From: Methanobacteriota archaeon
GTDB taxonomy: Archaea; Halobacteriota; Methanomicrobia; Methanomicrobiales; Methanospirillaceae
Direction of reading: 5' to 3'
DNA length: 62,843 bases
Assembly: GCA_029547605.1 (NCBI GenBank)
Contig: JAKPPB010000110.1
Span: 1-62,843 of the forward strand
Shown here: one piece after another, positions 53,075 through 62,529 of the stretch
How the letters are laid out: each line of letters starts with the position of its first letter
How positions within the stretch are numbered: the first letter of the stretch is position 1
Notes under the pieces: model-generated
Told to the model about the DNA's origin: nothing
What the model saw: the letters and a program-made list of their open reading frames with translations, nothing else
The model's database searches: none
Program-made: the position numbers and the translations under genes

Positions 53075-56879
<3,805 letters not shown>

Positions 56880-56890
56880 GGCACTCCCTC

Positions 56891-58705
56891 CTACACCACG
56901 TCCTCGAGCTTTAACCTCGGAGCGATTCCCATGCTCTTCATCTCGTCAAGGAGCAGCTTGAATGCATACGACATCTCCACAGGATAGATGTCTGTCTCAC
57001 CCCCGCAGGCAAGGCACCTGGTCGTGTTGGCTTTCCGGTCGAGCATGGCTACCATCCCGCAGCGGGCGCAGACGTACTCCTGCACCTTGTCGGACTCGTC
57101 AAGGAGACGCTCCTTGAGTGCCATGGCGGCTCCATGGCCGATCATGACGTCGCGCTCCATCTCTCCAAACCGAAGGCCCCCTTCCCTGGCCCGCCCTTCT
57201 GTGGGCTGGCGTGTCAGTACCTGGACGGGGCCCCTTGACCGGGCATGCATCTTCGAGGAGACCATGTGATAGAGTTTCTGGTAATAGATCACGCCCATAT
57301 AGATATCTGCCGAGAACCGTTTCCCAGTGATGCCGTCATACATCACTTCACGTCCGGTGTGGGCAAATCCCTGGCGTTTCAGAGAGGCGCGGAGATCTTC
57401 CTCGCGTTCTCCCGAGAAGGCGGTCCCATTGATCCTCCGCCCCTCGAGGGCGCCAACCTTGCCACCGATCATCTCGAGCATGTGGCCGATCGTCATCCTG
57501 CTTGGGATGGCGTGTGGGTTGATCACTAGGTCGGGGGTGAGCCCCGACTCGGTATACGGCATGTCCTCCTGGGGAGCGATCAGGCCGATGACTCCTTTTT
57601 GTCCGTGGCGGGATGCAAACTTGTCACCCACCTCAGGAATCCGCTGGTCCCTGGTCCGGACCTTGACCAGGCGGGAGCTGTTTTCTCCTTCAGTGATGAT
57701 GACCGTGTCGACGATCCCGCGTTCATTGCTCCGCATTGTCACCGAGGTGTCGCGGCGCTTCTCGACAGTGATGAGGTCGCTTGTCGGTTCCTCGAGGAAC
57801 CGGGGCGGGGATGTCTTCCCGATCAGGACATCTTTCTCGTTGACCACGGTCTCGGGGTTGATCACCCCGTCGTCATCGAGGTTCTTGTAGCTTTCAGCGC
57901 CGTGGGCTCCTGTCACCTCTTCGTCCGGGATCTCGATCCGGTCGACCTGCCCTCCGGGATATCTCCGCTCCTCTCCCTCGTAGGTGCGGAAGAAATGAGA
58001 GCGGCCGAGTCCCCTGTCAATGGACGCCTTGTTGAATATGAGGGCATCCTCTATGTTGTACCCTTCGAACGAGAGGATCGCCACGACGAAGTTCTGGCCG
58101 GCCGGCCTGTCATCAGAGCCTATCAGGTCTGATGTCTGGGTATGTACCAGGGGTTTCTGGACATAGTGGAGGAGGTGCCCCCTGGTATCGGGGCGGATCT
58201 TCATGTTCGCGGCCCCGAACCCCAGGGCCTGTTTGACCATTCCTGCACCCATGGTGACCCTCGGGCTTGCGTTATGTTCGGGGAACGGCACATGCGCCGC
58301 CCCGATTCCCAGGATGAGCGAGGGGTCTATCTCCATGTGGGTATGCGCAGGGGTGATATCAGCAGGATTGATGGCAATCAGGAGATCTTCCTCCTCTTCT
58401 GCATCGATCAACTCTATTAAGCCTTTTTTAATGAGCGCATCGAATTCGATCTCTTTTTTCTTCAGTTTCTCAACATCTTCTGCCGAGATGAGGGGTTTGC
58501 CCTGCTGTAATACAATCAGTGGCCGCCGGGCCCTGCCCCTGTCGGTATGAATGATGACGTCGTTGTTGAATTCCTTGTGAGAGATATTTACTTCCGTGGG
58601 AATGACACCCTGACGGCGCATTGCCCGCACCTGGGAGACCAGCGCCTTTGGGTCATCCACGAGCCCTATCAGGGCTCCATCGACGAACACCCGTGCCTTC
58701 TTCAT
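56891..58705 (-). CDS. rpoB1: DNA-directed RNA polymerase subunit B' (C-terminal part of the second subunit)
   Basis: The 604-residue subunit corresponds to the C-terminal half of RPB2. Marks are [19 protein letters not shown] near 213, [13 protein letters not shown] near 370, and a C-terminal zinc site CARCGMV/CLACGG (near 553-575). It overlaps B'' by four bases (58702-58705), the split typical of methanogens and haloarchaea. Confidence 0.97.
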
Positions 58706-60213
58706 CTGACATCCCCCTTGATATGCTCTACTCCAAGGGTGTAGAGGACACGGATCACTTCATCCTCGTCCTGGACCCCCTTGCTGATCTCGACCATCTG
58801 GGCAAAGTTCTTCACCAGTCCACAGTTCGGACCTTCAGGGGTCTCGCTCGGGCAGATCCGGCCCCACTGGGTGGGGTGCAGGTCACGTGCCTCGAAATGG
58901 GGCTGCGAGCGGGAAAGGGGGGAGATGACGCGGCGGAGGTGTGAGAGGACGCTCATGTGGTCCACCCTGTCGAGCAGCTGGGAGACCCCGGTCCTGCCGC
59001 CCACCCAGTTCCCGGTTGCGAGCGGGTGAAGCAGGCGCTCGGTCAGCACGTCCGCTCTCACCGCCGTCCCGATAGAGAGGTCGCGATGACGCATGCTCGC
59101 ACGCTCCAGCTGGTACTTGATGTCCCTTGTCAGTCTGTTGAGCGAGATGCGGAAGAGATCCTCCATGAGATCTCCTGCAAGCTTCAGCCGTTTGTTTGAG
59201 TAGTGGTCCTTGTCATCTATCCTTCTCTTCGAGAGTACAAGGTCAAAGCAGGCCTCTGCCATGCGCCCAAGGAAGTGGGCTTTTGCCAGACGGACCTCGG
59301 CAACGGCTTCGCGGTACCCCTCGTCACCCTCCTTGAGATTTGTCGGCATCAGGTAGTTGAGGTGGGGGAGGAGATAGTTGTCAAGAACGAACTCCGCACG
59401 CTTCCGCTGGTAATCCTTGGTCTGGTTGGGAGCAAGTTTCTTCCCTACGTACATGACCCCCGCATCGACGCTGTCGCAATCGCTCTCCTCCAGGTTCTGC
59501 ATCATATAAGTGAGGATATCCTCATCGGTGGAGACTGCGCTCACCACATCATGGTCGCTGACCATCCCGAGCGCACGCATCAGGTCAACGAACTTCAGGT
59601 GTCCTGCAACAGAGGGAAAAGAGACCTCGAGGAGGTTCTTCCTGTTCCGTTCCACGACGACGAGCGCCCTGTACCCGCGATACTGGGAGAAGACCTTTGC
59701 CACGTAAATACGCTCGTTGTAGCGCTCCGTGTACTCGGTCATGATCTTGTTGGACGCGAGATCTTCAAGGGTCATCAGCACGCGCTCGGTCCCGTTCACA
59801 ATGAAATACCCGCCAGGATCCAAAGGATCTTCCCCATGGGAGACCCGTTCATCCTGGCTCATCCCGTAAAGGTTGCAGGCCGCCGATCCCACCATGATGG
59901 GCAGTTGCCCGATCGTGGTGATGACCGGGTCCTGGCGTTCACCCCCCTGCACAAGGGTCAGTTCCAGATGAATTGGTGCGGCATACGTGAGGTTGCGAAG
60001 TCGTGCCTCGCTTGGGAAGAGATCTCCCTGTGAGCCATCGGCCTCCCTCACCAGTGGTTTTTTCACCTCTACTTTACCGAGTTCCACCCATACCGGGTCA
60101 TTGCTCCTTCCCCGAATCTCGATGTCGGTCTCGATGACCCGCTGTTCATTGACTACCTTCTGCAGGTTCTGCAGAAGAAAATTGTTAAAAGAGTCGAGCT
60201 GGTGGCGCGCCAC
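58702..60213 (-). CDS. rpoB2: DNA-directed RNA polymerase subunit B'' (N-terminal part of the second subunit)
   Basis: This corresponds to the N-terminal half of RPB2: protrusion and lobe. Marks are [35 protein letters not shown], and [30 protein letters not shown] at the end. The GTG at 60213 is the first ordinary start and gives 503 residues, but the frame remains open and family-like further upstream ([18 protein letters not shown]), with no ATG, GTG or TTG; the true start may be an ATT at 60258 or a CTG at 60261 behind a GGGGCTGAT ribosome site. Confidence 0.95.
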
Positions 60214-60281
60214 ATGCTCCTGGGAGAAATATGCCTTAGATAATACGCTCCTGTCAATCAGAAAGATCAGCCCCGCCTGAA

Positions 60282-60533
60282 TTATTTTTTCGGCCTTTTT
60301 ATGACCAGCCGGTACGATTCGGCCCTTCCGGCCGTATGGGATGTCCGGACGATACGGATTACGTCCCCCACCTTGGCTCCGATAACCTTCACAGCAGGAT
60401 CGTCGTGGTAGATTTTTGGTAATTGTTCGCTCGTAATGTTGTAGAGAGAATAGAGTTGCTGGACTTCTTCTTCACTCATAATCTGGTGATCCGGAACCAT
60501 CGCATGTTCCAGTACATTCAGTTTTATACTCAC
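60282..60533 (-). CDS. rpoH: DNA-directed RNA polymerase subunit H (Rpo5)
   Basis: The 83-residue subunit matches the C-terminal domain of RPB5: [19 protein letters not shown] at 5-23, [26 protein letters not shown], and [11 protein letters not shown] at the end. The start is GTG at 60533, directly before SIKLNVLEH; the open frame further upstream runs into tRNA-Lys. It is the first protein gene of the polymerase operon. Confidence 0.94.
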
Positions 60534-60610: not shown

Positions 60611-60684
60611 CGGGCCCGGAGGGATTTGAACCCCCGACCACCTGGTTAAAAGCCAGGCGCTCTACCTAACTGAGCTACGAGCCC
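60611..60684 (-). tRNA. tRNA-Lys (anticodon TTT)
   Basis: Acceptor GGGCTCG pairs with CGGGCCC (one G-U) plus discriminator G. The anticodon stem CCTGG/CCAGG holds loop CTTTTAA, so anticodon TTT. The T-arm is GGGGG/TTCAAAT/CCCTC. No CCA is encoded. It lies 77 bases before rpoH on the same strand, probably on the same transcript. Confidence 0.96.
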
Positions 60685-61383: not shown

Positions 61384-62529
61384 ATGAACCAGATTTCCGC
61401 GTGGTTGTCAAAAAATTCGCCACCATTCTGTCCTGACACTTCCCTGGCGCTGAATGCCACGAGGCACCTCTCCAAGGCTGAGCGGGCGAAGCTCTTCTCG
61501 CCAGACCTTGAGAAGATGAGGACCGCCGAGGGGCGCTGGTATGAGGCCATCATTTACGAGCTCTTCGTTGAGATCTCGAAAAAAACGGATGCGATCAGCT
61601 CCCTTGCGCTGAAAGGGGCAGACGCACCCCGCGGGGGGAGAAATGCGCGGCTCGGGCAGAATGGGATCTTCTATTCCAGGTCAGGAGACATCACAATCCG
61701 CGGAAATGGCCAGGATCTGGCAGAGTTTGATCTCCTGATGATTGACGGGGACAACCAGGTCACCTTCGCGGAGGTTCTGACCTCTCCCTCCGATCTCAAG
61801 GAATTTGAGGCAGAGATCGATTACAAGAGGAGCCTGCTGGGATACCTCTTTGACCAGCCAAGGGTACCATTCCTGATGGTCGCATCATTCAATGTCTCGA
61901 ATTACTCTGCCGGGAGGAGGATCCTCAAGGCCCCCCACACCATCCATCTCCAGACTGCGACCTGCGAGGAGATCAAGTCCGGCCTCCAGGGAAGGCAGAG
62001 ACCCCCCCACGGATGGAGACCTGGACTGCCACACTCCAAGATGGTGAGGGCGTCCGATTTTACGTTCAAGCGCTCTTTTGACTACCAGAAATTTCATGAC
62101 TGGGAGCGGAACTGGGTATTTTCAAGTGTCTCAAACGAGGTAGACGTCAAGAGCGCCGCAAATCCCCACGAGACATCGATGCTCGTCAAGAAGATTCTGT
62201 ACGGAGGCCTCTATCCCTCGGCAATACGTTCCGTATGCCAGGAGTATGAATTCTCAATACGGGGCAAAAAGATCGGTTTTGACGACATTAAAAAGCAGTT
62301 CTCCAAGGTCGTCCTCGCGACCGACCTGCCAGGATATGAGCCGCTCATGTATTTTCGGTCAAACCAGAAGAGAGAGTACCTGAAGATGGTCCAGGACAAA
62401 GACGGAAACTTCAAGTTCGAGCGTTTCACCCCTTCCAGGGTAGGGTTTTTCCTTTGGCTCGAATCACTCGGCCCAAGCCTTGGATCAAGGATCACCTCAA
62501 AGATACTCGATGCGTTCTCTCCCAGGTGA
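61384..62529 (+). CDS. Protein of unknown function, possible PD-(D/E)XK nuclease-like fold
   Basis: I do not recognise this 381-residue protein. Its first half has an order like PD-(D/E)XK enzymes: a helix with GRWYEAIIYE (E54/E59), a strand with LAEFDLLMI (D116), then TFAEVLTSP (E130) and a helix with EIDYKRSLL (K148). The usual Lys two residues after the Glu is replaced (E-V-L), so the fold may be inactive or use K148. The second half (SFDYQKFHDWERNWVF) has no clear match. A membrane segment is not seen. Confidence 0.6.
   Translation: MNQISAWLSKNSPPFCPDTSLALNATRHLSKAERAKLFSPDLEKMRTAEGRWYEAIIYELFVEISKKTDAISSLALKGADAPRGGRNARLGQNGIFYSRSGDITIRGNGQDLAEFDLLMIDGDNQVTFAEVLTSPSDLKEFEAEIDYKRSLLGYLFDQPRVPFLMVASFNVSNYSAGRRILKAPHTIHLQTATCEEIKSGLQGRQRPPHGWRPGLPHSKMVRASDFTFKRSFDYQKFHDWERNWVFSSVSNEVDVKSAANPHETSMLVKKILYGGLYPSAIRSVCQEYEFSIRGKKIGFDDIKKQFSKVVLATDLPGYEPLMYFRSNQKREYLKMVQDKDGNFKFERFTPSRVGFFLWLESLGPSLGSRITSKILDAFSPR

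Follow-up and report, generated by a model that had tools for sequence, protein, structure and literature searches.

A CTG codon as the probable translation start of the RNA polymerase gene rpoB'' in Methanomicrobiales

Our analysis indicates that the archaeal RNA polymerase subunit gene rpoB'' (rpo2N) is very likely translated from a CTG codon, located at 60261-60259 on the minus strand of the window, by which we mean the whole stretch of 62,843 nucleotides that was analyzed. A preliminary description of the window had suggested a non-standard start for this gene and had left CTG and ATT both open. The comparison of 164 genomes of the order Methanomicrobiales supports the non-standard start and favors CTG as the most likely codon, whereas ATT appears as a variable second codon. 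As judged from these sequences, CTG is the majority state of the order at this place and swaps only with TTG and ATG, something that the window alone could not tell. The features discussed below are the following (the CTG is codon 0 throughout).

58702..60261, minus strand: rpoB'' (rpo2N) coding sequence with the proposed CTG start, 519 codons plus stop; residues 3-516 match NCBIfam PRK09606.1
60259..60261, minus strand: CTG, proposed start codon of rpoB''; CTG in 131, TTG in 27 and ATG in 6 of 164 genomes of the order
60265..60274, minus strand: putative Shine-Dalgarno (SD) element GGGGCTGATC, 3 nt 5' of the CTG; pairing with the 16S tail of -12.2 kcal/mol
60256..60258, minus strand: ATT, second codon, almost certainly not a start; seven Ile/Leu codons occur at this position in the 164 genomes
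60211..60213, minus strand: GTG, internal Val codon (codon 16), likely a false start; GTG in 27 of 164 genomes, Val invariant
60282..60533, minus strand: rpoH, upstream of rpoB''; proposed GTG start, from reading; its TAA stop precedes the CTG by 20 nt
56891..58705, minus strand: rpoB', downstream of rpoB''; its ATG overlaps the B'' stop (ATGA)
54240..56879, minus strand: rpoA', ATG start; named by reading the translation
53075..54238, minus strand: rpoA'', ATG start; named by reading the translation

The open reading frames follow the gene order rpoH-B''-B'-A'-A'', with B'' alone checked by profile and the others named by reading. On the minus strand the rpoH stop TAA (60284-60282) is followed by GGGGCTGATC at 60274-60265, then TTT, the CTG at 60261-60259 and the ATT at 60258-60256, while the rpoB'' stop codon occupies 58704-58702. 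Reading of this strand bore out that, as had been described, the rpoB'' frame reaches the GTG at 60213 without any earlier ATG, GTG or TTG. The codons from the CTG up to this GTG are CTG ATT GAC AGG AGC GTA TTA TCT AAG GCA TAT TTC TCC CAG GAG CAT (L I D R S V L S K A Y F S Q E H), and their count confirms that a start at the GTG would remove 16 residues. The frame is open over 589 codons versus 519 from the CTG, with about 70 open codons above it. A similar arrangement was found among the best 80 of 136 named loci, a sample overlapping with the 164 genomes. The spacing from the rpoH stop to codon 0 was 14-42 nt in 76 of these 80 (those where the script located the stop). The ATGA overlap of B'' and B' was present in 73 of the 78 scored loci (2 of the 80 were unscored), and B' started with ATG in 72 of the 78.

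We examined 232 genomes of the order, 207 of which had a match, and the start region was read in 164 of these 207 (six families and 38 genera). No codon other than CTG, TTG and ATG was found at codon 0. CTG was present in all families, as the only state in two of them (28 genomes of f4 and nine of f5) and together with TTG in f1 (70 CTG, 8 TTG), f2 (4 CTG, 3 TTG) and f6 (14 CTG, 11 TTG). All six ATG belonged to f3, which also had 6 CTG and 5 TTG. In the 80 named loci CTG was found in 77 and TTG in three. Specifically, CTG appears in Methanoculleus sediminis, M. chikugoensis and a complete Methanoregula chromosome, while a draft of Methanospirillum hungatei has TTG. Since ATG and TTG occupy the same place, the column behaves as a start codon and not as an internal Leu. 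Outside the order, the aligned place (by eye) was GTG in f14 (4/4), f27 (2/2) and f24 (1/1), TTG in f21 (5/5) and ATG in f31 (3/3). In two genomes that we take to be haloarchaea, an ATG was found, again by eye, two codons upstream of it. Some loci had peculiarities of their own. One single-contig genome carries two B'' N-terminus matches of equal score and equal identity about 15.7 kb apart (G159:C1:274081-274740 and 289801-290460), perhaps a duplicated rpo stretch, and the genome G180 has two matches on two contigs. In the draft genome G014 (C48:22260-23815; L070, L093) B'' is broken by a frame break and a TGA, perhaps an assembly error.

To follow the changes of this codon, a tree was built from 116 different B'' N-termini without codon 0. 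It is a quick tree whose 113 inner branches include 17 starred and 52 open ones, so its change counts are approximate. On these 116 rows codon 0 changed at least six times and its third base not once. Among the first 40 codons, 26 other columns kept their amino acid in at least 93% of the rows, and these underwent between 6 and 33 third-base changes, the Leu codons 6, 21 and 32 having 11, 21 and 33. Codon 0 is thus kept across species and exchanges solely with start codons.

The pattern of codon differences among the 164 genomes points to the same boundary. At codons -14 to -1 the synonymous share lay between 0.02 and 0.21, and at codons 1-16 between 0.26 and 1.00, so that conservation, as read from these alignments, switches from non-coding-like to protein-like at codon 0. 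The low values within the first 16 codons (0.26-0.37 at codons 1, 5, 8 and 13) come from exchanges of the Ile/Leu, Val/Ile and Arg/Lys type, and single later codons fall lower (0.07 at codon 29). The preliminary description had also held that the residues upstream of the GTG fit the N-terminus of the family, and this agrees with the protein profile, in which residue 3 aligns to position 3. From residue 3 to residue 516, the CTG form covers positions 3-493 of the 496 of PRK09606.1, with 810.8 bits over a curated cut-off of 355, which places the protein in the family. The alignment with solved archaeal B subunits begins at residue 6 of the CTG form (36ro_B from its residue 16 on, 2waq_B from its residue 15 on), residues 1-5 being unaligned.

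A sequence resembling a ribosome site had been noticed before the CTG and the ATT, and it does pair with the 16S tail. Because the genome of the window gave no 16S match, the tails were taken from eight relatives (one copy each): GGATCACCTCCT. The pairing energy was computed for the 20 nt before codon 0, and the element of the window reached the value listed above in spite of one internal mismatch. Over the 164 genomes the pairing before codon 0 had a mean of -11.7 kcal/mol, against -4.6 for the nucleotides preceding the Val codon and -5.0 for control stretches. In 138 of 164 the duplex left 3-4 nt between its end and codon 0, a distance appropriate for a ribosome site. By codon, the mean pairing was -12.0 for CTG (n=131), -10.7 for TTG (n=27) and -9.6 for ATG (n=6), with medians of -12.4, -12.2 and -10.0. 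Genomes with CTG paired slightly better than the rest (Mann-Whitney p 0.007, uncorrected for relatedness). RNA folding around the start gave no structure signal in the window (z +1.05), a result still compatible with regulation.

There are other places where B'' could start. A start three codons earlier, at an NTG within the SD element (CTG 60270 in the window; TTG, GTG or ATG elsewhere), is very unlikely, although codon -3 is NTG in 113 of the 164 genomes and canonical in 51 of the 131 with CTG at codon 0. In the other 51 of the 164 it is not NTG, and codons -3 to -1 have synonymous shares of 0.15, 0.21 and 0.06. Furthermore, the TG of codon -3 belongs to the stretch that pairs with the 16S, so that no SD element would be left in front of it. 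No in-frame ATG, GTG or TTG exists upstream of codon 0 in 69 of the 131 CTG genomes, and 40 of the 131 lack one over the whole span that runs from the upstream stop to codon 15. Some canonical triplet is found in frame upstream in the other 62, and the 51 cases at codon -3 are among them. The NTG of codon -3 may be taken for the start by annotation. In the genus g24 codon -3 is ATG in six genomes, and translation may start there in this genus. An in-frame ATG lies within the SD (GGAGATG), three codons before the CTG, in G119, G120, G121, G122, G124 and G126 (L166, L157, L295, L168, L162 and L171), and it is likely a false start in annotation.

The GTG at 60213 is the first canonical start of the frame, and if it were used the preceding 16 residues would not be made. 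It has in its favor an SD-like stretch in the window (-6.3 kcal/mol) and the fact that the best Pfam stretch begins only at residue 18 of the long form. Still, we consider this start even less probable than the previous one. The Val codon is GTT in 73 of the 164 relatives, GTA in 42, GTG in only 27 and GTC in 22. Relatives with GTT, GTA or GTC could not start there, which refutes a general start at the GTG equivalent, the outcome that the preliminary description had set as its refuting test when it called for comparing the N-termini of relatives. Besides, codons 1-15 evolve as protein, the GTG form begins only at position 18 of the NCBIfam B'' profile, and the SD duplex is stronger before codon 0 than before the Val codon in 159 of 164 genomes.

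Two further readings have hardly any probability left. The ATT at 60258 is a near-cognate codon of the kind used by infC and lies 6 nt past the SD element, but Ile and Leu codons exchange at this position in the relatives, which argues that it is not the start. Lastly, a normal start might be concealed by a sequencing error or by a frameshift that fuses the gene with rpoH, since the window comes from a draft genome of 128 contigs and the B'' frame remains open into rpoH. Against this, the CTG is found at the same place in independent assemblies, including named isolates and genomes assembled in a single contig (G033, G034, G072 and G159, for example), and an in-frame stop occurs 20 codons or fewer upstream in 89 of the 131 CTG genomes. 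The suspicion that resequencing could uncover an ordinary start therefore appears very improbable.

With the CTG as start, initiation could proceed as follows. The SD element just past the rpoH stop would position the 30S subunit with the CUG at its P site, where the ordinary initiator Met-tRNA (anticodon CAU) would read the CUG as a near-cognate codon, and the protein would begin M-I-D-R-S-V-L-S-K-A-Y-F; we infer both this reading and the N-terminal Met. A search with an initiator tRNA anticodon stem pattern that allowed either CAT or CAG found CAT in 23 of 23 matches, from 20 of 21 genomes. No initiator-like tRNA with a CAG anticodon was found in the 21 genomes by this exact pattern, which would miss divergent stems and had no match in one of the 21. 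A dedicated CUG initiator tRNA was set aside, as every pattern match was CAT. The CUG should be a weak start, because in archaea aIF1 is described as destabilizing initiation on non-AUG mRNA (PMC6237735), and this action against non-AUG complexes is a possible handle for control. Given the ATGA overlap of B'' and B' and the coupling by reinitiation reported for archaea (Huber 2019, as cited in PMC7531240), the levels of B'' and, by way of the overlap, of B' probably depend on the CTG. It was probably kept since initiating at a moderate rate behind rpoH fits the dose of both subunits, a purpose that we infer. Selection for weakness of the start is our hypothesis.

In bacteria, infC (coding for IF3) has an AUU start that is autoregulated through IF3. 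Like infC and other conserved near-cognate starts, rpoB'' would have a near-cognate codon long kept in an essential gene and led by an SD element. The differences are that infC is bacterial, uses AUU and is autoregulated, whereas rpoB'' codes for an archaeal RNA polymerase subunit, would use CUG and has regulation only as a hypothesis. The likeness to archaeal AUG, GUG and UUG starts is also clear, these being SD-led as well, and codon 0 is itself TTG or ATG in some relatives. A review of archaeal initiation names these three codons, and its main text has 0 occurrences of "CUG" (PMC7531240). In Methanosarcina mazei, Ribo-seq assigned a CTG start to 5% of 314 unannotated small ORFs (PMC11456600). 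Those are unannotated small ORFs of one strain, while in rpoB'' the CTG belongs to a conserved essential gene. Switches to CUG are rare in genome triples, where only 2 of 61,358 reconstructed AUG starts had changed to it (PMC5622118), whereas in rpoB'' CUG is the majority state of an order. In a proteogenomic study the alternative starts considered were TTG and GTG, and no start was updated for peptides that lacked an upstream start site (PMC3219674), a procedure that would conceal a case like this one. Among the literature matches listed in a limited search, we found no report of a CUG start of rpoB'' or of one in Methanomicrobiales. Evolution has retained the CTG, which may have stayed weak for a reason. 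A conserved CUG start of an archaeal housekeeping gene, present in named isolates, would make start-codon choice and fidelity testable on a natural gene. Gene finders restricted to ATG, GTG and TTG must miss it, and they would settle on a false start within the SD or on the canonical codon that comes first downstream.

A related pattern was detected in the family f8, presumably Methanosarcinaceae. In all 38 genomes read by eye (10 of 14 genera, loci L381-L410 and others, with g92, g134, g136, g137 and most of g71 left out) the codon before the aligned position was ATC (27), ATA (6) or ATT (5), and never ATG. In most genomes this codon lies 5 nt after GGTG, the spacing of an SD. In 17 of the 38, the stretch from the upstream stop to codon 16 had no ATG, GTG or TTG. 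Canonical candidates were present in the other 21: a TTG two codons after the ATC/ATA/ATT codon in g50 (8 genomes), a GTG adjoining it in g57 (2 genomes), a TTG at codon 6 in g132 and two of g133, a GTG at codon -4 in g135 (2 genomes), an ATG at codon 15 in g42 and a GTG further down in g96 (5 genomes, two of them with TAA directly after ATC ATT). These exceptions may start elsewhere. In the g96 genomes G350 (L192, L402) and G471 (L398), where TAA follows ATC ATT, the downstream GTG has its own GAGGG and looks like the start. In the 12 genomes first examined (g63, g71 and g86) Val codon 17 was always GTG, which makes it a rival start, and codons 7-16 were mixed, with a synonymous share of 1.00 at four columns and 0.00-0.56 at six. 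We take the ATC/ATA/ATT start as a lead suggested by the alignments, less certain than the CTG case. It is conceivable, if rather doubtful, that selection has kept B'' off AUG in two lineages, with CUG or UUG in Methanomicrobiales and AUC, AUA or AUU in f8. The weak start would then control the dose of the RNA polymerase core through coupling that runs from rpoH to B'' and onward to B', possibly with feedback by aIF1, as an archaeal counterpart of infC. Methanosarcina is genetically tractable, and if the f8 pattern is true it would allow testing whether a weak start governs the RNA polymerase dose.

We have also searched for further cases. A crude scan of 800 kb from two genomes for the codons that follow SD motifs gave CTG 12, ATG 38 and GCC 45 times in 906 matches, SD-like strings within genes swamping the signal. 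ORFs were also compared in pairs over 400 kb of G033, 400 kb of G159 and the window. Of the 91 pairs, with shadow ORFs among them, 15 were flagged. Judged by eye, 12 of the 15 look like antisense or out-of-frame shadows, two had an ordinary start near the conserved block and one was the rpoB'' pair of the window. No second non-canonical start was seen in these 91 pairs, the scan being small and leaky; the rpoB'' of G033 itself escaped it because of the ATG at its codon -3. In the surroundings of the rpo operon, a tRNA gene lies just 5' of rpoH (60611-60684, minus strand; Rfam tRNA, 73.5 bits) with the anticodon TTT (Lys) by reading, and an ORF of 381 amino acids adjoins the operon on the plus strand (61384-62529).
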